A stretch of 45,770 bases of DNA from Mariprofundaceae bacterium (GTDB taxonomy: Bacteria > Pseudomonadota > Zetaproteobacteria > Mariprofundales > Mariprofundaceae). Each line of letters opens with the position of its first letter. The stretch's first letter is position 1. Position numbers and translations under genes: made by a program. Positions 9,698-22,150 of the stretch are shown here, piece after piece. Below the pieces are notes generated by a model. That model saw only the letters and a list, made by a program, of their open reading frames with translations. It did no database searches and was not told the origin of the DNA. The stretch lies in NCBI GenBank assembly GCA_030950745.1, contig JAUZQZ010000117.1, positions 1 through 45,770 of the forward strand, in the 5' to 3' direction.

Positions 9698-12112
9698 TTA
9701 CAGATTAAGTTCAAAGAATCCTTTCTTTTGAGGTGCCGGTGACGATGGGGTCTGTTGGTTGCCCTCATCCGTGGTTGTTGGTGCGGTGCCGGTACGGAAG
9801 GCTTCAAGAAACGGTTTTTTGGTATCCGGGCCCGGCAGTTTGCCGGTTTTGGGGTCAATAACCACCCATTCAATGCCATCCGGCGGTACGAAGTTCTCTT
9901 TCGGTTTACCGCGCTGGAAGGTTTTCATGGCCGAAAGCCAGATGGGCAGGGCCGCTTTTGCACCTGTTTCATGCTTACCCATACTGGTAGGTGTGTCTCG
10001 ACCGGCCCATACACCGGTCAGGATTTGTGGTGTGAATCCCATGAACCATGCATCCACCTGTTTATTGGTGGTGCCGGTTTTACCGGCGGCCACGCGTCCC
10101 AGTGCCCGCGCCCGCCATCCGGTGCCATGCTGAATGACACCATGCATGATATTGGTTACCAGAAAAGCGCTGACCGGATCCAGAGTTTGCTCGGCGGGCT
10201 GCATGGAATCGTTAACGGCCAGCACCGGATCGGCATGGCATACCTGACAACGGTTCCCGGCGACGGAACGATGCAGAGTCTGTCCATTGCGATCTTGAAC
10301 TTGTTGTACGGCAACCGGCTGCCATCGTTTGCCGCCGGAAGCAATCACAGCATACGATTCCGTTAGTTCCCTGAGCGTAACTTCCGTAACACCGAGCGCC
10401 AGCGCCAGTTGTGGCGGAAAATCACGTTGGAACTGGTAATTACCCAGCGCACGCCTAAAACGATTGATGCCAACATCCTGCAACAATTTGATGGTAGCCA
10501 GGTTGCGCGAGTGCTCCAGCGCATTGCGCAAGGTAACGGGTCCGGCGAAGCGGTTTCTATAGTTTTCCGGTCGCCAGAATTCGTCCTGTTTCAGGTTTTC
10601 GAATACCACGGGAGAATCCACGATGATACTGGCCGGAGTAAAGCCCGCATCCATCGCCGTGGCATAGAGGAATGGTTTGAAAGCAGAGCCTGGCTGGCGC
10701 ATGGCTTTGGCAACACGGTCAAAGTCCCCCATTTTATAGGCAAAGCCGCCCACCTGCGCCAGTACCGTTCCGTGTTGCAGGTCAATGGCATACAGCGAGG
10801 CTTCCACCGAAGGTTGTTGTGTCAGACGCACACCTCCTTTGCCGTCGCCTTGCAGCCATATTTCATCGCCGAGAATCCATGTGCGTGGCCGTTGTGGTGT
10901 TTCGGGTACAACAAGCTTACTGGTGTCTTGCGCCAATCTTTCGGGCCTGGGTTTGGGGTAATCCTGCCATTGCCATTTGGGTTTGGAGAGTTGCCAGCGG
11001 TGGATACCATCGTTCACACTTAATCCACCTTCAGGCAAAATCTCTTCAATCAGTGCCGGAATGATCTGGTCTTCAGATAGAGGTGTTTCTGTTTCATTCT
11101 TACGCTTCTCAGCCCATGCAGCGAGCATATCCGGCCATGTTTCTTCCGGGTGATGCACAGGGAAGCGGTAAAGCTGACGTTGCTCAATAGCCAGCACGCC
11201 TTTACGTACGGCATGGATAGCAGCGGTTTCGGCTGTCGTATCGTAGGGAACGATGATGGTCAGTCCTTGCCGGCGCAGTGTTTTAGCACCAAAACGGGCG
11301 GTGAGTTCCTGATAGACCCGGTTGGCATACGCATTGGTGAGTTTCTGTCTGGGCAGGGGTGTGATGTTCAATGGCTCAGCAAGCGCCTGCTGCACGGCGG
11401 CTTTCGTGGCAAAGCCACTTTTTTGCATCATGTGCAGCACGATTCTGCGTCTGACAATTGCCCGTTCGGGGTGCAGGTGCGGGGCATAACGCGCGGGCGC
11501 TTTGGGCAGTCCCGCCAACATGGCGGATTCGGCCAGCGTCAGTTCATCCAGGCGTTTGTGGAAATAGCGCCATGCCGCACTAGCCACACCATAGGCGCCA
11601 CGGCCCAGGTAAATCTGGTTCAGGTAGAGGTACAGAATATCATCTTTGCTGAACTGTTCCTCAATGCGGTGGGCGAGGATGATTTCGCGGATTTTCCGGG
11701 CGTAGGTACGTTCCGACGTGAGCAGGAAATTCTTGGCAACCTGCTGGGTGATGGTGGAGCCACCCTGCACCGTATGTCCGGCGCGGAGATTGGCAATGGC
11801 GGCGGAAAGGATGCGGGCGGGATTGATGCCCGGATGCTGGTAGAAATGCTCGTCTTCCGCGGCCAGAAAGGCGTTCCTGAGTTGTTGGGGAATATCCGCA
11901 AGGGGCGTAAGGATGCGATGTTCATCGGCGTATTCGGCCAACAGCTCTCCGCTTGTGTTATAAACGCGGGAGACCAGCGGTGGCTGATAGGCCGAAAGGC
12001 TGCTAAGTTTAGGCAAGCCGCTTGAAAAATAGAGGTAAATACCTGTGATGCCAATCACAGAAATAATAGCGAATGTGAGGCCTAATTTGAGGATGAGGGA
12101 AATTTTGCGCAT
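9698..12112 (-). CDS. mrcA: Penicillin-binding protein 1A (bifunctional class A PBP)
   Basis: Polymerises and crosslinks peptidoglycan at the inner membrane. The 804-residue protein has an N-terminal membrane anchor (about 8-30), then a GT51 glycosyltransferase domain (about 55-230) with AEDEHFYQHPG, GGSTITQQVAKN and the RKIREI segment. An intervening OB-like region and a transpeptidase domain follow, with the catalytic SxxK as GSAFKPF, SRN as the SxN motif, and KTGTT. The length and long linker fit PBP1A. It converges with lpoA, which encodes the known PBP1A activator in E. coli. The start lies 37 bp from the divergent fimT start, so the two may share a small regulatory region. Confidence 0.95.
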   Translation of the reverse strand: MRKISLILKLGLTFAIISVIGITGIYLYFSSGLPKLSSLSAYQPPLVSRVYNTSGELLAEYADEHRILTPLADIPQQLRNAFLAAEDEHFYQHPGINPARILSAAIANLRAGHTVQGGSTITQQVAKNFLLTSERTYARKIREIILAHRIEEQFSKDDILYLYLNQIYLGRGAYGVASAAWRYFHKRLDELTLAESAMLAGLPKAPARYAPHLHPERAIVRRRIVLHMMQKSGFATKAAVQQALAEPLNITPLPRQKLTNAYANRVYQELTARFGAKTLRRQGLTIIVPYDTTAETAAIHAVRKGVLAIEQRQLYRFPVHHPEETWPDMLAAWAEKRKNETETPLSEDQIIPALIEEILPEGGLSVNDGIHRWQLSKPKWQWQDYPKPRPERLAQDTSKLVVPETPQRPRTWILGDEIWLQGDGKGGVRLTQQPSVEASLYAIDLQHGTVLAQVGGFAYKMGDFDRVAKAMRQPGSAFKPFLYATAMDAGFTPASIIVDSPVVFENLKQDEFWRPENYRNRFAGPVTLRNALEHSRNLATIKLLQDVGINRFRRALGNYQFQRDFPPQLALALGVTEVTLRELTESYAVIASGGKRWQPVAVQQVQDRNGQTLHRSVAGNRCQVCHADPVLAVNDSMQPAEQTLDPVSAFLVTNIMHGVIQHGTGWRARALGRVAAGKTGTTNKQVDAWFMGFTPQILTGVWAGRDTPTSMGKHETGAKAALPIWLSAMKTFQRGKPKENFVPPDGIEWVVIDPKTGKLPGPDTKKPFLEAFRTGTAPTTTDEGNQQTPSSPAPQKKGFFELNL

Positions 12113-12149
12113 CGACCGAAGCCTACGGTTTTACCCGGTTGTCCGGCAA

Positions 12150-12644
12150 GTGTCTGTCCGCCAGGAACGGGAAGCAGGCTTCAGCCTTATCGAACTGATG
12201 GTCGTTATCGGGATTATGGCGATCGTTATGGCCATTGCCGGAGGTGCATATTCCAGTTGGCGGGAAAGTACGCGTGTGGATTCAGCCAAAGAGAAGATCG
12301 TCAGCATTTTGCAACAGGCCAGGCTGGCGGCGCTTTCCAGGCGGACAGCTCAGACCGTGACGTTTAATTATGCCGGAGCGGGAGCAAATCCAAATACCGT
12401 CACAGACGTGCTTGGGCAACTGCATCGGTTTCAGGGTGTGACATTACTGGATTTTGTGTGCGGCGGTTGTAATCTTGGCGCTAACAATACCGAAAATATT
12501 ATTTTTACCCCTCGTGGAACTGCGACTCAGCTAACCGTGCAGGTATCTTCTCCCACTGCTAACAAGGTATTTTTTATACAGGCAAATAGCACTACGAGTA
12601 GAGTGGCAATCCGGCGCACATGCGTTGCCCCCAATTGCATATGA
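12150..12644 (+). CDS. fimT: FimT/GspH-type minor pseudopilin
   Basis: Minor type IV pilin thought to help prime pilus assembly. The prepilin signature EAG|FSLIELMVVIG gives a PilD cleavage site after Gly and retains Glu5, followed by a hydrophobic helix and a GspH-like domain with C-terminal cysteines (CGGC, and C-x4-C near the end). The start is uncertain. I chose the GTG at 12150, giving a normal ten-residue leader, although its Shine-Dalgarno sequence is weak. ATGs at 12093 and 12045 lie inside the divergent mrcA gene and would give leaders of 29 or 45 residues. It is the first gene of a minor-pilin operon; the stop overlaps the pilV start by 4 nt. Confidence 0.82.
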   Translation: MSVRQEREAGFSLIELMVVIGIMAIVMAIAGGAYSSWRESTRVDSAKEKIVSILQQARLAALSRRTAQTVTFNYAGAGANPNTVTDVLGQLHRFQGVTLLDFVCGGCNLGANNTENIIFTPRGTATQLTVQVSSPTANKVFFIQANSTTSRVAIRRTCVAPNCI

Positions 12645-13063
12645 AAACCTTCGTTGTGAACACCAGAGAAAAGCAGCAGGGCTTCACCCTGATTGAGTTG
12701 ATGGTCTCGGTGCTGATTGCATCTGTAGTGATGCTGGCTTTGGGGGGGATGTTGATTATAGGGATACGTTCCAATCAGACCAGCGAGCACCGTATGGATG
12801 CGGTGGGTCTTGCACAGTCGCTGATGATTGACGCGACCACCCAGTCCCTGGGTAGTGTGAGCACGCCTCCGGCAGGGAATCAGCCCACTGCCATTCCCAA
12901 CGTTACCTCCAATATTGTCATTGTGCCGGACAACATTCCAGTTGGCTGGGCGCAACCTCTCCCCTTGAGTGGCACAGGGGGGGTGACGATTTCTGTAACG
13001 ATTAACTGGAATGAGCACAATATTCCAAAAAATGTGACTCTGAATTCACGGACGGTTCGGTGA
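12641..13063 (+). CDS. pilV: PilV-like minor pilin
   Basis: A 140-residue minor pilin. A 14-residue leader precedes the cleavage motif QQG|FTLIELMVSVLIASVVM, and the body resembles the type IV pilus modification protein PilV. The body is short and has an HRMDAVGLAQSLMIDA segment soon after the helix, typical of PilV and PilI-type pilins. The ATG at 12641 overlaps the fimT stop (ATGA), and the stop overlaps the pilW start by one base (TGATG). The operon order fimT-pilV-pilW-pilX supports the call. Confidence 0.8.
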   Translation: MKTFVVNTREKQQGFTLIELMVSVLIASVVMLALGGMLIIGIRSNQTSEHRMDAVGLAQSLMIDATTQSLGSVSTPPAGNQPTAIPNVTSNIVIVPDNIPVGWAQPLPLSGTGGVTISVTINWNEHNIPKNVTLNSRTVR

Positions 13064-13833
13064 TGAGTGTGCATATCAGGCAAACATTCGTAGCCCGGCG
13101 CGGCGAGGCCGGTTTTACGCTGATTGAATTGATGGTGGCGATGCTTATTGCCTTGATTATTATGGCAGGTCTTTACGCCAGCTTTTCAAAACAGAGTACT
13201 GAATACAGTTACCAGAACCGGCGCATTGATGCCGTGCAGGATCTGGAATTTGCCATCAAATTTATTACTGATGATTTGCGTGCAAGTTTGGTTATCGGGG
13301 GTGTGTCATCAGTTGTGACAACCGACGATGTTGTTGGCCGGACGACGGATTTACAGATGACCGTTTGGGATCAAAACGTTGCCTCTTGGGCGGCACCGCC
13401 AAATGATGGGCCAACAAAAAACTTCCGCGCGGTGCGGCGCTATGTTCTGGTCGTTGATCCTAACAATGCTGCCCAGTTTGTATTGCGCTATGAACGCAAC
13501 TTGAATGATGGAAATAATAATCCTGTAGAGATTCTCCCCAATATCACCTATTTCAAGGTGTTTGTAGATGGCGTGACGCCGCGTGTTGTACCTGCGGGAA
13601 ATCCCAACGCAGGCCTTCCGTATCCGGGGATTCCGGCAGCATTGCCAGTGACCAGCTTGCAGGATTCGGGCGGTCTCCCGGTAAATGGCATTCGTGGTTA
13701 CACGGTTCTGGTAGAGATGGCCGTGCAGGCCGGATACAACCAGGGTTTGATGCAGGATGTGCTGGGTAACCCGACGACGAACAAGCGGGTGTGGCGCTAT
13801 ATTCAGGTGTATCCGCAGTCATCAGCGAATTAA
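13063..13833 (+). CDS. pilW: PilW-like minor pilin
   Basis: A 256-residue minor pilin. A leader of about 17 residues ends EAG|FTLIELMVAMLIALIIM, followed by QNRRIDAVQDLEFAIKFITDDLR, which matches the early region of PilW. The rest is a beta-rich domain ending in a Trp-Arg-Tyr segment. The ATG at 13063 overlaps the pilV stop by one base; a GTG immediately before it would add one residue. The minor pilins PilV, PilW and PilX normally form the tip-priming complex together with PilY1, but no PilY1 gene is found here. Confidence 0.82.
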   Translation: MSVHIRQTFVARRGEAGFTLIELMVAMLIALIIMAGLYASFSKQSTEYSYQNRRIDAVQDLEFAIKFITDDLRASLVIGGVSSVVTTDDVVGRTTDLQMTVWDQNVASWAAPPNDGPTKNFRAVRRYVLVVDPNNAAQFVLRYERNLNDGNNNPVEILPNITYFKVFVDGVTPRVVPAGNPNAGLPYPGIPAALPVTSLQDSGGLPVNGIRGYTVLVEMAVQAGYNQGLMQDVLGNPTTNKRVWRYIQVYPQSSAN

Positions 13834-13853: not shown

Positions 13854-16712
13854 ATGAAGACAAACATACATTCAGAGCAAATGCATGACAAAAATGAACG
13901 ATCCGGAGAGCGGGGGTTTATCCTTGTTTCCGTGATTGTGCTGCTAGTGATTCTTACCATTATTGGTGCGGCTGCCATGATGAAATCGACCGTTGAAGTG
14001 AAGGTTTCCGCAGGATCAGTGCTATCAGGGCAGGCATTGGCGGCAGCCAATGCCGGTCTGGCGGAGAATTATGCCTACTGGTCCTATAATGCGGCAGGGC
14101 AGACTGAAAGAGGCAATGTCGTGACTGATGTTGGCAATGGAACGGCCACATCCGGGATTGGTTTTATTCAGAATACGGGTGGTGCAGTCGATTTTCCTAC
14201 GCCATCCATGATGTCTGATCTGGGGGCGGGATTTGATGCCGTTATTCAGGGCAGCGACCTTGATTTTCTGCCGCCCGGGACACCGGGTATCCGTGTGTAC
14301 AAGATTACCGCTGCTGGCGCCACAAAGGTTCCCAATGGCACATGGGCAACGGTGAACACGCCGCAGGTTGCAGTCTGGGCTACCAGCTTCGCGAAGCAGA
14401 CAGGCTCCGCTTTCCCTTATGTCACGCCCAATACGGTTGCCTGCCCGGATTGTAGCATTGCGATATATGCGCTGGGCCGGGCAGGCACTCCCGGTCAGGA
14501 TGCGCGCAGCCTAGTGCGGGAGATCCAGGTGACAATTAAACAGGATTTGGAAGGTGCGAGCGCACTGACCAATGCGCCTTCGTACGGTAATTTCAACGAG
14601 TTCTGCTCCGAGGCGGCGGCCAAGGCCAATCTGGGCAACGCATCGGGATGGATGGCAACCCTGAACAATACTGTCATTGAAGTGACGCAGAATCCTTATC
14701 TTCGTGATACTGCGAACGACAAAAGCGCACCGTCCGGGGTCGCGATCAAGTCCAATACCAAGCTTGGCGGTGGTGGTAAAGGATTCAGGAAGAAAGCGGC
14801 CAGCACGACAGGTGCGACGTTCGAACGAGTCCCCTTGCTTGTCTATTCCGGCCACGGTCCGGCAGGGGCGCCTAACGAGTCACGGGCCAATTATGCCGGC
14901 ACCGGCGCTTCCAATCCGGATAATACGGTTCCTTACGATAACCTCGATTTGTTGGCGCCCAACGAAACGCCACATAACCTGATGATGGCTCCGACGATGA
15001 ATACGGCTGACGAGGTTAAGTATTTTCCGAATGGTGTGTCACAATTGTTCAACTTGGACGCCTATCGCTGGGCGGCCGAAGAGTTTGTTTGCCAGGATAC
15101 AAGCAAGGCGGACGGAGTGGACGGCAATGGTCGCTATTGCAGCAAGGCGGAGGCCCTGCGGCTTGCCGCCGGGAGCGCCGCGCCGGTGACCGGACGTCTG
15201 ACCGTCGCCGAGTTCGAATACAACGCCAATTATGGTATTCCGATGTTCGGCATGGTTCGGGTCATGATGCCGACAACGGGTAGTGGTACAACATTTAGCT
15301 GTACCGTCAATGGAGCTGCTTTTAACAGCCAATTCTATAATATCTCCGGCAGCGTATCTACAATGTCGACGGATGCCTCCGGTGGCGCATCCGGACTCTA
15401 TGATGGGTCGCCAACCGCAGTGGATTCTGATGGTGAGATGGACGGCACCGCGCGCGTGCTGGTGTACGGGGCGCTGTTTTTCGATTTTTTCACGGACGAC
15501 AACAACAACAATGTGTTTGACCCCGCGGCAGGCGAGCGCCTGCTTGAGCCGCTGGAAGCGACCGATTCCTACATGAAAATTGAATTTCCGATTCTGGTTA
15601 ATCCGGCAATGCCCCATGGACCACTGGGCGCTTTTCCTACCGCGGCAGCGGGCGGCGTCATTGCAACAGGGGTTTCCACCAACCCAATCAATCTGGCGTC
15701 ACCCACCGGAGGCTATTACCCTGTCAGTGAAGGCCTGGTGCTGCAAAATGACAGTACAACCTACGACAAGGGACTTACCGGAATTATGCGGCTGATGAGT
15801 AATGGTTTGAGCCCGCTCATGCCGGCGAGTGGCCTGACTGCAATATCTGAAGCAATGATTGCATCGTCTGGGACATTCCCTCCAGCCGGGGCAAGTGCAT
15901 TGTTTGCGGCGCATCAGACGGAGCTTAAGTATTATTTTGACTTAATGCGCTTGAATGCCAAACAGTCCGATCCATTTTCATGGCCGATCAGTACGACGTT
16001 CCCGGCCAATATGGGAGCGAATTTCTATATTGGTAATGAGGATTCAGTGGCCGGGAATAATAATGGCGATATGTTCCATTTGCTGTTTCCAAGCGGCTAT
16101 ATGCATGGCTGGAAGGTGGCCCTGGCCGCGCTCAATCTGAAAGCAGTGGACTGGAATGGCATATTCACCAATCTTGAAACCGGGCTGGCGGCGCAGAGTA
16201 ATGTTCCAAAAGACTATGGCGATGCTACCAGGCTTAAAGGATCGCCGTTTAACAGCGTGGCGGATGTCCCGGCGACTTGTGGTGCGGGTGGAACGCCCCA
16301 GTGTACCTGGGCGGAATGGGTGCAGAAGCTGGAAGCGAATGTAGATAAATATTTTTATGTGGATGATACGGATCCCTCGGGTTATGGGCTGTTGACCGAC
16401 CAGTGGCGGGATATTCCGGGCGAAATGTATGTGGGCGGCTTGCTGGATATGCATGCGCATGCCAACATCAACGGCTTGGTCTATACGCCGGGACCGCTGG
16501 AATGGGAGCCGGGAAATTCGAATTACGGAGGCAACAGTAATCATATGGCCTACATCAATGGCGCGATTATTACCGGCTTCGGCGCCTATGTGAAAAATAA
16601 GGTAACCAACGGGCGCTATGTGCTGGTGTATAGCAATGATGCCGTGGATAACATTAATACGAACACGGCAGTCAGTACGTCACTGCGATTTGCCCGGCAA
16701 CTATTGAAATAG
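13854..16712 (+). CDS. Giant PilX-like minor pilin with a large unknown C-terminal region
   Basis: A 952-residue protein with the N-terminus of PilX: a 21-residue leader, the site ERG|FILVSVIVLLVILTII, then GAAAMMKSTVEVKVSAG and a QALAAANAGLA helix. Position +5 after cleavage is Ser, not Glu, as in other non-canonical pilins such as GspK. Ordinary PilX proteins are about 200 residues, so roughly 750 residues are extra. This extra part is rich in Gly, Asn and Asp, has scattered cysteines and an acidic loop (TDDNNNNVFD near residue 545) that could bind calcium. The start has a strong AGGAG 7 nt upstream. It takes the place usually held by pilX and pilY1, so it may be a tip protein. The C-terminal domain is not recognised. 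Confidence 0.8.
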   Translation: MKTNIHSEQMHDKNERSGERGFILVSVIVLLVILTIIGAAAMMKSTVEVKVSAGSVLSGQALAAANAGLAENYAYWSYNAAGQTERGNVVTDVGNGTATSGIGFIQNTGGAVDFPTPSMMSDLGAGFDAVIQGSDLDFLPPGTPGIRVYKITAAGATKVPNGTWATVNTPQVAVWATSFAKQTGSAFPYVTPNTVACPDCSIAIYALGRAGTPGQDARSLVREIQVTIKQDLEGASALTNAPSYGNFNEFCSEAAAKANLGNASGWMATLNNTVIEVTQNPYLRDTANDKSAPSGVAIKSNTKLGGGGKGFRKKAASTTGATFERVPLLVYSGHGPAGAPNESRANYAGTGASNPDNTVPYDNLDLLAPNETPHNLMMAPTMNTADEVKYFPNGVSQLFNLDAYRWAAEEFVCQDTSKADGVDGNGRYCSKAEALRLAAGSAAPVTGRLTVAEFEYNANYGIPMFGMVRVMMPTTGSGTTFSCTVNGAAFNSQFYNISGSVSTMSTDASGGASGLYDGSPTAVDSDGEMDGTARVLVYGALFFDFFTDDNNNNVFDPAAGERLLEPLEATDSYMKIEFPILVNPAMPHGPLGAFPTAAAGGVIATGVSTNPINLASPTGGYYPVSEGLVLQNDSTTYDKGLTGIMRLMSNGLSPLMPASGLTAISEAMIASSGTFPPAGASALFAAHQTELKYYFDLMRLNAKQSDPFSWPISTTFPANMGANFYIGNEDSVAGNNNGDMFHLLFPSGYMHGWKVALAALNLKAVDWNGIFTNLETGLAAQSNVPKDYGDATRLKGSPFNSVADVPATCGAGGTPQCTWAEWVQKLEANVDKYFYVDDTDPSGYGLLTDQWRDIPGEMYVGGLLDMHAHANINGLVYTPGPLEWEPGNSNYGGNSNHMAYINGAIITGFGAYVKNKVTNGRYVLVYSNDAVDNINTNTAVSTSLRFARQLLK

Positions 16713-16714
16713 GC

Positions 16715-17191
16715 ATGAAGGCGTTGTTTTTTAATCTCATTGCAGGCTTTGCTATCACTTTGTTGATGGGAATGCCGGTTTCGGCAGCTTCTTTCTATCA
16801 GTGGAAGGATGATGCCGGGGTGACACATTTTACTGACAATCCAGATATGGTTCCGCCTAAATATCGTAACAAAGTCCCGCAGAGGTTGTCGTCTTTTCCG
16901 ACATTGAAAAGCAATGTCAGCGAATCTACCGCTCGAGTGCCAGCAAGATACAAGGTCTGGAGTAAAAAATGTGCCCGTTGCCATCATGTCGGTGAAGGGA
17001 AGCGAGGTGGCTTGATTGGGCTTGGGCCGATAACAATTAATTCAGACACCCGATTTCCCGAAACAGCAAAAGACTTAACTAAAAAACTCAGATTCGCGGC
17101 CAGTGGTCGCTACAGTGATATGCCCAAGGTGGATGTAACGGATGATGAATTACGTACTATTGCTGACTATTTGATGGAAAAGCAGAAGTAG
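16715..17191 (+). CDS. Secreted c-type cytochrome with N-terminal DUF4124
   Basis: A 158-residue predicted periplasmic protein. A signal peptide (about 1-24, ending VSA) is followed by a DUF4124-like segment (FYQWKDDAGVTHFTDNP, residues 27-43) and a small class I cytochrome c domain. The domain holds CARCH (Cys86, Cys89, His90) for covalent haem and a likely axial Met136 in SDMPK. The ATG lies 2 nt after the stop of the giant pilin gene, so the two are almost certainly co-transcribed. Cytochrome c genes are not normal members of pilin operons. The role is unknown; electron transfer near the pilus machinery is an inference only. Confidence 0.85.
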   Translation: MKALFFNLIAGFAITLLMGMPVSAASFYQWKDDAGVTHFTDNPDMVPPKYRNKVPQRLSSFPTLKSNVSESTARVPARYKVWSKKCARCHHVGEGKRGGLIGLGPITINSDTRFPETAKDLTKKLRFAASGRYSDMPKVDVTDDELRTIADYLMEKQK

Positions 17192-17251: not shown

Positions 17252-17300
17252 GGTAAGTTGCATCATTAAGTGCGAGTAGAACTTAAACAAAGGGGTGGAA

Positions 17301-18383
17301 GTGGGACTATTTTCCGGCAAGTCTGAGGCTCTGATGGGTGTGGACATCAGCTCGACCGGTATCAAACTGGTGGAGTTGGGGCGTGTGCGTGGTGGCTTTG
17401 AGCTGAAGTCCATGGCCGTGGTGCCGTTGCCGCGCGATGCCATTGTGGAAAACACTATTATTGACTCTATGGCCGTGTCGCAGGCATTGCTGGATGCGAT
17501 GGAGATGGCTCGTCCCTCGACCCGCAATGTGGCATTCGTTGTTTCGGGCAATGCCGTGATTATCCGCACTGTAACTATGCCGACCATGACCGAATTTGAA
17601 CTGGAAGCACAGATTGAATTTGAAGCGGATCAACACATTCCTTACGATATTGATGATGTGTATCTGGATTTCCAGATACTGGGTAAAGTAGCGGAAGATG
17701 AGACACAAATGGATGTGGTTCTGGCTGCCTGTAAACGCGAGGTTATTGAGGACTATCAACTGGTACTGAATGAAGCGGGACTAACACCAACATGCGTGGA
17801 TTGCGCGGTGTTTACTCTGGAAAATGCTGCGGAACTGCTACCGGATGAGACCGGACAAGATGCATCAGAAGCGTTGGCGGATCACAGGGATGTGCGTACG
17901 CATGCGCTGATAAATATCGGTGCGAATCTGATTAACATTAATATCCTGCAAAATGGGCAAATGGCTTTTGTGCGCGACCAGTTCTATGGAGGCAACAATC
18001 TGACGGAAGAAATCCAGAAAGCGCATGGCATCAGTTACCAGGCCGCGGATCAGATGAAGCAGGAGAATTTTTCGGGGATCAAGACGGAAGCGCTGGAGGG
18101 GTTTTACGTGGGGTTAACCAGTGAACTGGTGCGATCGCTGGATTTTTATACCGCCAGCCATGCCGAGCATCCCGTGCAGAAGCTTCTCTTGAGCGGCGGT
18201 TCATCGCTTATTCCGGGTCTTGCAAACGAGTTGGAGCAACGGTTAGGTATTGAAGCACAAGTATTGAATCCACTTTCTGCAATCAAGGCGTCCAACCGCA
18301 AATTCGATCAGGAGTATCTGGATCGTGTCGGCCCTATGATGATGGTGCCGGTAGGGCTTGCGCTCAGGAGCTTTAACGAATGA
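17301..18383 (+). CDS. pilM: Type IV pilus inner-membrane platform protein PilM
   Basis: Cytoplasmic actin-like ATPase-fold protein that binds the PilN N-terminus and couples the pilus platform to the motors. The 360-residue product begins MGLFSGKSEALMGVDISSTG, with the FtsA-like phosphate-binding loop near residue 13. It continues with NIGANLININ near 208, and a C-terminal LLSGGSSLIPGL phosphate-2/adenosine region near 300. I chose the GTG at 17301, which follows AGGGG by 5 nt and gives the usual short PilM N-terminus; a GTG at 17295 would add two residues. It is the first gene of pilM-pilN-pilO-pilQ, and its stop overlaps pilN by 4 nt. Confidence 0.93.
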   Translation: MGLFSGKSEALMGVDISSTGIKLVELGRVRGGFELKSMAVVPLPRDAIVENTIIDSMAVSQALLDAMEMARPSTRNVAFVVSGNAVIIRTVTMPTMTEFELEAQIEFEADQHIPYDIDDVYLDFQILGKVAEDETQMDVVLAACKREVIEDYQLVLNEAGLTPTCVDCAVFTLENAAELLPDETGQDASEALADHRDVRTHALINIGANLININILQNGQMAFVRDQFYGGNNLTEEIQKAHGISYQAADQMKQENFSGIKTEALEGFYVGLTSELVRSLDFYTASHAEHPVQKLLLSGGSSLIPGLANELEQRLGIEAQVLNPLSAIKASNRKFDQEYLDRVGPMMMVPVGLALRSFNE

Positions 18384-18961
18384 TTCGCATTAATCTCATT
18401 CCCTACCGTGGTGTTCGCCGTCAGCGCCAGATATTGCAGCATATTGCAGCGGCGCTGGGTGTGGTGGGGCTGGCGGTGGTCATTAGTCTGGGACTTCATA
18501 TCTATGGTTCATCCACACTTTCCGGCTTACAGGATAACCTGGCATCGCTACGTGCACAGAATAAAACCCTGAATCTGAAGATCGGTAAAATAAGGGATCT
18601 CGATAAACTACGAAAGGATGTGCAGCGCAAGCTGGCTCTGGTGGATGAGTTGCAGGATGGACGTTTTCGCAGTCTGGAAACATTATTGGCGTTATCCCAT
18701 GCGATTCCAGAAAATGTGTGGCTGTTGGATGCCAAGGATTCGGGTGGTAATCTTCAATTGAACGGTTTGGGTGAAAGCAATAAAGCTGTGGCTAATTTTA
18801 TGCGTGCACTGGATCAGGAGCCGGTATTTTCCAGAGTAAATCTGAAAGTTATTGAACGGAAGACCATTGGTTCTGTTCCGGTTAGGAAATTTTCCCTGAA
18901 AATGCGACGAGTGACCCCTCCGGCTCGGGCCGCCAAATCGGGCAAGGGTAAACAGTCGTAA
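18380..18961 (+). CDS. pilN: Type IV pilus platform protein PilN
   Basis: Bitopic inner-membrane protein that forms the PilN-PilO dimer of the alignment complex. The 193-residue protein starts with the PilM-binding motif INLIPYR (residues 4-10), followed by a transmembrane helix (about 22-45), a coiled coil and a periplasmic ferredoxin-like domain. It ends in a basic tail. The ATG overlaps the pilM stop (ATGA) and the stop overlaps the pilO start (TAATG). Confidence 0.93.
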   Translation: MIRINLIPYRGVRRQRQILQHIAAALGVVGLAVVISLGLHIYGSSTLSGLQDNLASLRAQNKTLNLKIGKIRDLDKLRKDVQRKLALVDELQDGRFRSLETLLALSHAIPENVWLLDAKDSGGNLQLNGLGESNKAVANFMRALDQEPVFSRVNLKVIERKTIGSVPVRKFSLKMRRVTPPARAAKSGKGKQS

Positions 18962-19581
18962 TGTTTGGTTCATTGAATCTTAGCCAACTTGAGTTGTTGC
19001 GCCCCATCCTGCCGTTTCCGTTATGGCAGAAGGCGGTTGTTCTGGCAGCAAGTTTTGTCCTGATTCTTGTGGTCTACATATATTTAGGCTGGATGCCATT
19101 ACAGGATAATATCACCCGGGTTCAGAGGAATGTGGATGGGGAGCAGATGCTTCTCACAAGAAACCTCAGAATTGCCAAGGATTTACCACGTAAGAAAAAA
19201 GAATTCGCCAAGCTGGAAAAACAGTTGAAGGTAGCACTTAATATGTTACCCAAGAAATCCCAGATTCCCGATTTGCTGGAAGGGGTGACCCGTGCCGGAA
19301 CAAATTCCGGTTTGGAATTTTCAATATTTAAACCATTGGGAGAAATAAACAAGCAGTTTTATGCCGAAGTACCGGTAGACCTCAGCGTTACGGGGACCTA
19401 TCGGCAGCTGGCAACGTTTCTTAAACGTGTGGGTCAAATGCCACGTATTGTGGATGTAAAGAATCTGTCATTGAAGCAAGCCAAGATTGGAGGCCCTCTG
19501 ACCGTGGTGGGGCAGGCTGTGACCTACCGCTTTATTGAGAAGGGAACCGGAAAGAAAAAACCCCGCAAGGGCAGGCGTTAG
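18961..19581 (+). CDS. pilO: Type IV pilus platform protein PilO
   Basis: Partner of PilN in the inner-membrane alignment complex. The 206-residue protein has one transmembrane helix (about 24-43), a coiled coil with the basic LPRKKKEFAKLEKQLK segment, and a periplasmic domain with PLGEINKQFYAEVPVDLSV. This is the conserved PilO core. It ends in a very basic tail (KKKPRKGRR). In most type IVa systems pilP follows; here the next gene is pilQ, 37 bp away. Confidence 0.93.
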   Translation: MFGSLNLSQLELLRPILPFPLWQKAVVLAASFVLILVVYIYLGWMPLQDNITRVQRNVDGEQMLLTRNLRIAKDLPRKKKEFAKLEKQLKVALNMLPKKSQIPDLLEGVTRAGTNSGLEFSIFKPLGEINKQFYAEVPVDLSVTGTYRQLATFLKRVGQMPRIVDVKNLSLKQAKIGGPLTVVGQAVTYRFIEKGTGKKKPRKGRR

Positions 19582-19618
19582 TGGCCTCTTACACACTAAC
19601 AATGCCGGGAGGCAAATT

Positions 19619-22150
19619 ATGCGAATCAACATGCAAATAAACGGGTGGAACACTATGTATAAAGAGTTTCTTACAAGAGGTTCTAAGCGCTATGCAATAA
19701 TGACGGCGTTATTCACCTTGTTTCTTTCTCTGTCAGTACCTTCTGCACAGGCTGTTCAGGTGAATGACATCAATCTGCAAAAGTCACCAGGTGGTGATGT
19801 AGTGACGATTCTGGCGGATGAGCCAATGACCTATGAGTTGTTTGACCTCAAGGCACCCGCACGGTTAGTGGTGAACATTCCCGGAGCTTCGTTGAAGAAA
19901 GGTCTGGAGCCATTGCATGACGATCACCCGGGTGTGAACAGCGTATTCCCAGTCGTTTCCGGTGACGGTGTGCGGCTTGAAATCGGGATGGACCGCGTGC
20001 TTGCCTATCAGGTGGATGAAAAGGGCAAAAAGCTTGTTGTGCGTTTTGCTGCGACAGTCGTAACGGGTAAAAAAAGCGGGGCGGGCTCTGCGGCAGTATT
20101 AAAGGATATCGATATTCGTGATCGTGGATCGGTGACCGAACTTATTTTACGCGGCGATCATATGAATGCCAATCATGATGCATTTATTACTAACAAAGGA
20201 CGCACGCTCATTCTGGATTTCTGGGGTGCGACTTCAATGCTACCCAAGGAGCATTATGCCGTTTCGACTCAAAAAGTGAGTGGCATAACGGTAGGCCAGG
20301 CCGAGGGGCGTGTACGCCTGGTCGTGAATCTAATCAAGGGTGGACAGCAAAATCATCAGATCGATGCCGGTGCTCAGCAGATGGTGGTGCGATTTGGTGG
20401 TGTGGCAGCCAAACGAAGAGCGGCTGTATTGAAGGTTGAAGAGGTTCATTTTCAGCCGGATGACCGTGTGGCACATCTGCAAATTCGTACAGATGCGACC
20501 AATCCCATTGTGAATATTTATGAGAAACAGGGCAATGTGGTGCTGGATATCAAGAAAGCAGCATTGGCTTCCGGGCAGCAGCGTACGCAGGATGTACGGG
20601 ATTTTCCTGGCCCTATTAAACAGGTGGATGCCTATACGGTGGGTGATCAGGTACGCATCGTTGCTCGTTTGCGTGAAAAGGTTGATGTTTCCAGTTTTCA
20701 GCAGGGCAATGTGTTGACGCTGACCCTGGTGCCGAAGGGTCTCGCGGCGGCACGCCGGGGTGTGAAGGGTGGTGAGAAGTTCGCTTATACAGGCCAGAAG
20801 GTTACGTTTGATTTCAAGGATATTGATATTCGTAATGCGTTGAAACTGATCGCGGAAATGAGTGACCTGAACATTATCATGTCCGATGACGTTAGCGGTA
20901 AAATGACCATGCGTCTGGTGGACGTGCCTTGGGACCAGGCGCTGGACCTGATTTTATCCGCGCGTGGTTTGGGCAAGGAACGGCAGGGTAACGTCATGCG
21001 TATTGCACCGACCAAAGTGCTGGTGGAGGAACGCCAGAATCGGTTGGAGGCGCTTCAGGGCTCTGAACAACTGGAGCCATTGGTGACGGAGTTCATCACC
21101 CTGAGTTATGCCCGCGTCAAGGATGTGAAGAAGATGTTATCCGGAGCCTCAGCCAATTCAACCAAGGGGGGTGGTGCATCCGGTGGTAGTACGGGTGGAG
21201 CGGCACCTGCGGGGGCTTCCTCGTCACAAACAACTATCGGGATCCTCTCTCCACGCGGTAGTTTCCTGGTGGATGAGCGGACCAACACCCTGATTATCAA
21301 GGATACCAAAGATTCCGTGAACAATATCAAGCGGCTGATTGCCACCATCGACAAGCCGGTGGAACAGGTGTTGATTACAGCCCGTATTGTGGAAGCAACG
21401 GATAATTTCTCGCGCGAACTTGGTGTAAGCTGGGGTGGTCAGGTGACTGGCCGGGGTGGTAATGTTAAGCATACATTAGGCAGCCGAGTCCAGGATCCTC
21501 TGGTCCCGAATACAGGTATAAATCCGGGCGGATTCCTGGTGGATTTACCGGCTGTCGTTGGCACAGGTGCCGGTGGTATAATCGGTTTTAGTATTGGCGC
21601 ACTGAACAATGCTTTTAACCTTGATTTAGAATTGTCGGCTGCTGAAGCAGACAAGAAAATCAAGATTCTTTCCAATCCGCGCGTGGTGACGACGAATCTC
21701 AAAACAGCCACCATTGATTCGGGCAAAGACGTGCCGTTTGAAACGGTCAGTCAGAATGGTACGCAGGTGCAGTTCAAGAAGGCGACGCTGGGATTGGAGG
21801 TGACGCCGCAGATCACGGCGGACAAGCGGGTGATCCTGCATGTCGTGGTGACCAAGGATAGCGTCCTGGCGCCTGTCGGAACCAGCACTAATCCAGTTCT
21901 AAGCACGAAGAAAGTTGATACGGAAATCTTCATGGATAATGGTGAGACTATTGTGATTGGCGGCGTTTACACGCGTGACCGGCAGGTTACAACCAATGGT
22001 ATCCCGGGATTAAGCAAGATTCCGGTTCTTGGCTGGTTATTCAAAAAGAAGTTTAGGCAGGATAACAAAACAGAATTGCTGATTTTCCTGACACCGAAAA
22101 TTCTGGAAAGCCGCCCGGGCCAGGGAACGTCATTGGCTGAGTCCAGCTGA
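19619..22150 (+). CDS. pilQ: Type IV pilus outer-membrane secretin PilQ
   Basis: Forms the multimeric outer-membrane pore for the pilus. From the ATG at 19619 (GGGAGG 7 nt upstream) the product is 843 residues: a signal peptide (to about 45), two AMIN domains (about 50-140 and 160-255) and a further beta domain. It continues with an STN/N0 domain (FKDIDIRNALKLIAEMS, about 405), NolW repeats with a Gly/Ser-rich insert (about 525-545), and the C-terminal secretin domain. The latter includes VPFETVSQNGTQVQFKKA and the VIGGVYTRD and LGWLFKKK signatures. AMIN domains are expected to bind peptidoglycan. The first 13 residues ahead of MYKEF may instead be untranslated. Confidence 0.94.
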   Translation: MRINMQINGWNTMYKEFLTRGSKRYAIMTALFTLFLSLSVPSAQAVQVNDINLQKSPGGDVVTILADEPMTYELFDLKAPARLVVNIPGASLKKGLEPLHDDHPGVNSVFPVVSGDGVRLEIGMDRVLAYQVDEKGKKLVVRFAATVVTGKKSGAGSAAVLKDIDIRDRGSVTELILRGDHMNANHDAFITNKGRTLILDFWGATSMLPKEHYAVSTQKVSGITVGQAEGRVRLVVNLIKGGQQNHQIDAGAQQMVVRFGGVAAKRRAAVLKVEEVHFQPDDRVAHLQIRTDATNPIVNIYEKQGNVVLDIKKAALASGQQRTQDVRDFPGPIKQVDAYTVGDQVRIVARLREKVDVSSFQQGNVLTLTLVPKGLAAARRGVKGGEKFAYTGQKVTFDFKDIDIRNALKLIAEMSDLNIIMSDDVSGKMTMRLVDVPWDQALDLILSARGLGKERQGNVMRIAPTKVLVEERQNRLEALQGSEQLEPLVTEFITLSYARVKDVKKMLSGASANSTKGGGASGGSTGGAAPAGASSSQTTIGILSPRGSFLVDERTNTLIIKDTKDSVNNIKRLIATIDKPVEQVLITARIVEATDNFSRELGVSWGGQVTGRGGNVKHTLGSRVQDPLVPNTGINPGGFLVDLPAVVGTGAGGIIGFSIGALNNAFNLDLELSAAEADKKIKILSNPRVVTTNLKTATIDSGKDVPFETVSQNGTQVQFKKATLGLEVTPQITADKRVILHVVVTKDSVLAPVGTSTNPVLSTKKVDTEIFMDNGETIVIGGVYTRDRQVTTNGIPGLSKIPVLGWLFKKKFRQDNKTELLIFLTPKILESRPGQGTSLAESS

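Follow-up and report, generated by a model that had tools for sequence, protein, structure and literature searches.

The window analysed here, 45,770 nucleotides in length, is one entire contig (JAUZQZ010000117.1; C21) of a metagenome-assembled genome of a Mariprofundaceae bacterium (1.89 Mb, 88.6% complete). At 13854-16712 on the forward strand, among the genes of a type IVa pilus, it encodes a 952-residue protein that is likely to be a PilX/GspK-class minor pilin with a large tip module built into its chain, displayed at the pilus tip and encoded within an exchanged gene cassette. The most likely role of this fused PilX-tip protein is to prime and cap the pilus.

The PilX pilin and its separable module

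The reading frame is intact and translates without an internal stop. A significant match to the N-terminal domain of PilX (PilX_N, PF14341) covers residues 20-70 (E 8.3e-07, 29.3 bits; cut-off 25.5), and the same domain is matched by 13 of the 15 members of the long-homologue set A2 (E <= 0.1). The C-terminal domain of PilX (PF13681), which the same domain library recognises in the classical PilX of genome G789, has no match in the 952-residue protein at E <= 1. The open reading frame (ORF) takes the fourth place in the order fimT-pilV-pilW-pilX. Together with the long homologues in 14 of the 78 genomes of the order, these results bear out the original prediction, made from the letters of the window, of a PilX-like minor pilin of ~950 residues at the pilX position. 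The prepilin leader, the helix and the pilin sheet up to its penultimate strand occupy residues 1-231 (13854-14546) according to the domain match and a structure model, and residues 1 to ~231 are, judged from their sequence, a PilX pilin. The processing site reads ERG/FILVS. The serine at position +5, which had been singled out in place of the usual glutamate, is indeed present, but it is not unusual: the +5 residue is S or T in 9/9 aligned long homologues, so the missing Glu5 is the rule in the group and was discarded as a functional clue.

The inserted module, beta-solenoid-like in the model, spans residues 233-936 (14550-16661). Named relatives of the 952-residue protein come mostly from Mariprofundus, Ghiorsea and other Zetaproteobacteria. 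NCBIfam assigned no family to the protein, and a sequence search of the Protein Data Bank (PDB) with the protein alone returned merely two chance-level topoisomerase rows. A plasmid origin was rejected, as a tblastn search of the protein against plasmids came back empty. A counterpart of the module occurs as a free protein in a gammaproteobacterial locus (L065). There, a PilX-like pilin of 246 residues ends in a stop codon, and 3 nucleotides further on a GTG codon starts a protein of 598 residues, the N-terminus of which is Sec-like. This protein scores 131.9 bits against the long-form hidden Markov model (HMM), over profile positions 360-880. Searches of 185 relatives and of the class to which L065 belongs (369 genomes) brought the stand-alone module genes to eight in six genomes (two each in G098 and G789, one each in G146, G100, G101 and G102). 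In every case a pilin gene immediately precedes the module gene, which thereby occupies the slot usually filled by pilY1. Seven of the pilins are complete and match a PilX profile; the remaining one is truncated at a contig end and has no match. The N-termini of the stand-alone proteins resemble Sec signals as judged by eye, and neither the module nor any of the eight proteins reached the cut-off of a Pfam family. In G789 (L166, L168) one of the stand-alone sets directly precedes a classical fimT-pilV-pilW-pilX-pilY1 set, the PilY1 beta-propeller (PF05567) scoring 159 bits; the propeller is also found in one of the five other host genomes.

Among the 185 relatives, 14 genomes had a match and five were counted as hosts. 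G141, G193, G209, G236, G248, G263, G272 and G274 were rejected, the match being confined to a low-complexity tail or, in G141, falling in a reading frame interrupted by four stops. G104, with a short match in an ORF at a contig edge (A4 35.3 bits; phmmer 21.5 bits), was counted neither way. A phylum sample of 397 genomes contained 15 with a match, namely G098 and 14 with the coordinates of Zetaproteobacteria from the order census. The free and the fused forms found are confined to pilin operons. By this homology, the ~700 extra residues are a separable module, mostly homologous to proteins that are encoded separately, directly after pilX, in gammaproteobacteria. Mainly because the stand-alone relatives directly follow pilin genes, the 952-residue protein is interpreted as a PilX fused with a partner of the pilY1 slot. 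Thus, the suggestion that the protein merges a tip pilin with an adhesin holds in that a second tip protein appears to lie in the same chain, but not in the sense of a stand-in for PilY1.

The acidic loop for which calcium binding had been suggested is present at residues 544-561 (DFFTDDNNNNVFDPAAGE; 15483-15536) and occurs in the fused forms only. D544 and D548 are invariant in 15/15 long homologues, and E561 is nearly so. The conserved acidic residues make a calcium role possible, as a candidate function specific to the fused form.

Structure models and the C-terminal strand

Structure prediction, which had been proposed as a check, was run for the 952-residue protein with a 15-row alignment (mean predicted local distance difference test score, pLDDT, 64.8; predicted template modelling score 0.69). 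The model contains a helix at residues 13-95, strands at 147-152, 171-179, 201-212 and 215-231, and a C-terminal strand at 939-951 (16668-16706) that ends with L951, which is invariant in 15/15 long homologues; most of this strand has a pLDDT below 50. Structural comparisons with VIA-align placed ComZ of Thermus thermophilus (PDB 6QVI, 6qvi_C) in tied first place (Z 7.3, 329 residues aligned, root mean square deviation, r.m.s.d., 11.8, model residues 55..952), level with ice-binding beta-solenoids (Z 6.6-7.3, r.m.s.d. 3.4-4.5, 160-187 residues aligned, model residues 232-945), where Z below 8 can reflect a common arrangement. The model of a Ghiorsea homologue (L062, pLDDT 58.1) aligned with PilA of Streptococcus sanguinis (7o5y_D, Z 8.6, 123/131 residues aligned, r.m.s.d. 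3.9, model residues 42..842), and ComZ was its second match (Z 6.4). Both models align with ComZ through the C-terminus, and alignments that begin in the pilin domain and reach the final residue suggest that the C-terminal strand likely lies in the pilin sheet of the modelled protein. This placement is graded as likely rather than as shown because the pLDDT is mostly below 50 and Foldseek gave no significant match.

ComZ is the known precedent for the modelled architecture. It is described as a large GspK-like minor pilin that binds DNA, with a beta-solenoid before the last pilin strand, as the models suggest for the 952-residue protein, and a proposed position at the tip (PMC6561018). It differs from the 952-residue protein in having about half the length, in its DNA binding and in lacking a sequence match to the long-form profile. 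ComZ is not known to have an acidic loop or a cytochrome partner. The tied best match, and the second rank for the homologue, would also suit a ComZ-like DNA-uptake receptor, the tip solenoid of which binds DNA for natural transformation and has no role in adhesion. However, the structural Z scores are just 6.4-7.3, and the partner genes are the type IVa genes fimT, pilV and pilW next to pilMNOQ, so that a DNA receptor is considered unlikely.

A returning strand has a parallel in the PilX-PilY1 pair of type IVa pili, which occupies the same operon slot (fimT-pilV-pilW-pilX-next gene). Published models, in the parts available, predict that the C-terminus of PilY1 adds a strand to the PilX sheet (PMC11046646, PMC13190605). 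The pair differs in that the module lacks the PilY1 beta-propeller and that both parts form one chain here. The stand-alone proteins have a W-x-E-I-x-P-like stretch within their last 25 residues in 8/8 cases, mostly after a variable linker; the W is missing in L065 and L135, and Ala replaces Pro in L134 and L138. The short PilX proteins of the order stop at the penultimate-strand motif that precedes the module in the long form, a register weakly supported by the profile, the last ~25 columns of which align in 5/15 long proteins at low score. In 14/18 loci, the short PilX is followed by a small ORF whose product terminates in R[EST][IVL]xG[QREK]. Such ends occur in 18/1779 ORFs of these loci, and 18 were also counted downstream of PilX; the pattern, which was also allowed Q at the second place, was chosen after most sequences had been viewed, making the count partly circular. 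Downstream of the short PilX in L046-L050 and L066-L081 lie small secreted-looking proteins of low complexity with Lys/Ser/Asp repeats and CxC and ICHxPPGNPxN motifs, which end in R-E-I-x-G-Q. These small proteins may supply a strand to the short PilX.

Long and short cassettes at the mrcA-pilM locus

A census with the long-form profile gave matches in 65 of the 78 genomes of the order. The long form is present in 14 of them, with open frames of 846-1058 codons except in G076, where it is cut by a contig edge, and in G008 (L041 7332-10425), where it is split by a frameshift that is either real breakage or a sequencing error. G064 has a 71-codon fragment only, and the remaining 50 genomes match merely the first ~60-130 profile positions, with frames of 84-450 codons, most of them PilX_N-like and ~260-450 codons long. 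The long form is thus a minority alternative at the pilX locus. G002 carries three minor-pilin cassettes with a long PilX (L038, L043 and L045), two of them away from pilM.

That a short PilX of ~260-450 codons suffices at the same locus in most relatives would be expected if the extra region were a structural enlargement that stabilises or primes the pilus and has no receptor function. The many Gly, Pro, Trp and Tyr among the invariant residues of the long form are also those of a structural core. However, the module persists elsewhere as a free secreted protein, the acidic loop occurs in the fused form only, and both forms as found are restricted to pilin operons; a purely structural role is judged improbable. 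An assembly artefact or a chimera of a short pilX with an unrelated gene, for which the fragmented metagenome-assembled source and the frameshift-split homologue in G008 could be cited, is refuted, to the point of being negligible, by the mutually independent long homologues in 14/78 genomes, which share 31-51% identity and conserved residues from end to end.

The absence of PilY1 noted in the original prediction extends beyond the window. PF05567 has no match in the bacterium's own 88.6% complete genome (0/1) or in the 78 genomes of the order, with a long or a short PilX alike, and it is not matched by the 952-residue protein, any of the 15 A2 members or the stand-alone relatives. As a positive control, the same domain was found in 7/61 genomes of another set, all outside the order; 14 standard control genomes were silent in every PF05567 search. 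Since genomes with a short PilX lack PilY1 as well, the proposal that the long form directly replaces PilY1 does not follow, and the idea of the long PilX as a stand-in for a PilY1 retained by short-PilX relatives was dropped.

Where upstream sequence is available, a divergent mrcA-like gene marks one border of the cassette in most loci; pilM marks the other on contigs that extend far enough. In the long cassettes, the PilW that accompanies the long PilX is of the long type (171-364 bits on the long-cassette PilW profile). In the short cassettes, PilW is of a different kind (29-48 bits), and the short PilX is followed by small secreted proteins of low complexity. On the trees, the long and short labels change once each for pilW (36 rows), fimT (34 rows) and pilV (32 rows), whereas the mrcA tree (31 rows) has eight changes (mean 9.3 and minimum 6 in 200 shuffles); the trees behind these counts were quickly built, and long-cassette profiles served to select the rows for pilW, pilV and fimT. 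The mrcA and pilM rows nearest to those of the window (75% and 80% identity) belong to G011, a genome with a short cassette. The one change each in fimT, pilV and pilW against eight in mrcA indicates that, at the mrcA-pilM locus, relatives have swapped the entire cassette from fimT to pilX.

In the window, the gene order is fimT-pilV-pilW-952-residue ORF-cytochrome c-pilM-pilN-pilO-pilQ, with the pil names other than fimT assigned provisionally, in part by position. The upstream border, which we take to be mrcA-like from its sequence, encodes a penicillin-binding protein at 9698-12112 on the reverse strand and was traced with its own HMM. On the forward strand follow a fimT/GspH-like minor pilin at 12045-12644 (GspH PF12019, 23.2 bits, cut-off 21; N_methyl), a minor pilin in the pilV position at 12620-13063 (N_methyl PF07963; PilV TIGR02523 28.5 bits, under its cut-off) and one in the pilW position at 13060-13833 (N_methyl PF07963), which groups with other long cassettes on the tree. 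Downstream, also on the forward strand, the ORFs at 17295-19581 are presumably pilM, pilN and pilO, pilM being the conserved border across loci, and the ORF at 19535-22150 is presumably the pilQ secretin, with a true start that is probably later. No pilP lies between pilO and pilQ (18961-22150); a loss of pilP from the genome was ruled out, as PilP was found on its contig C81.

Proposed role at the pilus tip

A gene for a protein with a DUF4124 domain and a single-heme cytochrome c (CARCH) lies directly downstream of the 952-residue ORF, at 16715-17191 on the forward strand (PF13511 37.2 bits, PF13442 27.4 bits), and had been missed in the original prediction. Ten of the 16 distinct long loci have such an adjoining gene (four on the opposite strand), five lack it and one ends at a contig edge; one of the detached G002 copies (L043) carries it even though it is not beside pilM. 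None of the 21 short loci has it, 18 of them with at least 500 nucleotides of downstream sequence. At the usual place of the distal ligand, a Met is present in the cytochrome of the window (SDMP) and in those of L051, L054, L058 and L060, and is absent in that of L053. A c-type cytochrome gene beside a tip-protein gene is likewise known in Myxococcus xanthus, where TfcP of the pilY1.1 cluster stimulates the calcium binding of PilY1.1, as stated in the available text of PMC8833165. TfcP differs in its Cys distal ligand, which is not present in the window cytochrome with its CARCH motif, Met at the usual place and DUF4124 domain. The parallel is suggestive only.

In the proposed mechanism, prepilin peptidase would cleave the leader after G21, and the pilin helix would join FimT, PilV and PilW in the priming complex, with PilX probably uppermost. 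The growing pilus would then push the priming complex outward, bringing the module to the tip, where PilY1 sits in other type IVa pili. More tentatively, the extreme C-terminus may return to the pilin and add the last strand of the sheet, in a ComZ topology that would be a covalent version of the strand addition predicted for PilX and PilY1. The module probably binds a surface or a ligand, to judge by its operon position and relatives, and the acidic loop may make this binding calcium-dependent; the cytochrome c encoded alongside may, in the manner of TfcP, help the protein to mature. The fimT-pilV-pilW-pilX cassette would be swapped as a whole among relatives at the mrcA-pilM locus. Tip adhesins built as modular pilins are reported for S. 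sanguinis (PMC9934059). These proteins, PilB and PilC, differ in their unrelated vWA or Ig/lectin modules and belong to the pilus of a Gram-positive bacterium. No PilX-tip protein fusion of the present sort was found in the literature searched, which mostly did not include subscription papers and preprints.

Several results weigh against a tip-displayed binding module. The absence of PilY1 with a short PilX implies that the pili of the order need neither PilY1 nor the module. The acidic loop has no counterpart in the stand-alone relatives, so the central function of the module cannot rest on a calcium loop, and the cytochrome is missing from 5/15 judgeable long loci. A PDB sequence search with the long-form profile found nothing at E <= 10, and Foldseek found no match to the 952-residue model at E <= 0.001, with ComZ at rank 11 (E 2.4). 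The low confidence of both models and the Z scores below 8 count in the same direction.

A broader interpretation that joins these observations is offered tentatively, as somewhat less than an even prospect. The module would represent an unnamed family of tip proteins unrelated to PilY1, free after pilX in some gammaproteobacteria and fused to PilX in Zetaproteobacteria. PilX would be one strand short and receive the strand from lineage-specific donors, namely the C-terminus of PilY1, that of the free module (W-x-E-I-x-P), that of the fused protein, or the small R-E-I-x-G-Q proteins behind the short PilX, and the tip set would be swapped as one cassette at a fixed locus. If the 952-residue protein is a pilin with a tip module, a protein family unrelated to PilY1 can take its place at the end of the pilus, whether as a separate partner or in one chain with the tip pilin. 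The existence of both versions would then offer a natural experiment on the way in which PilX is joined to its partner at the tip. If iron-oxidising bacteria exchange their tip cassettes as wholes, the tip would seem to be the part of the pilus under selection, for the choice of surface or for escape from phages.
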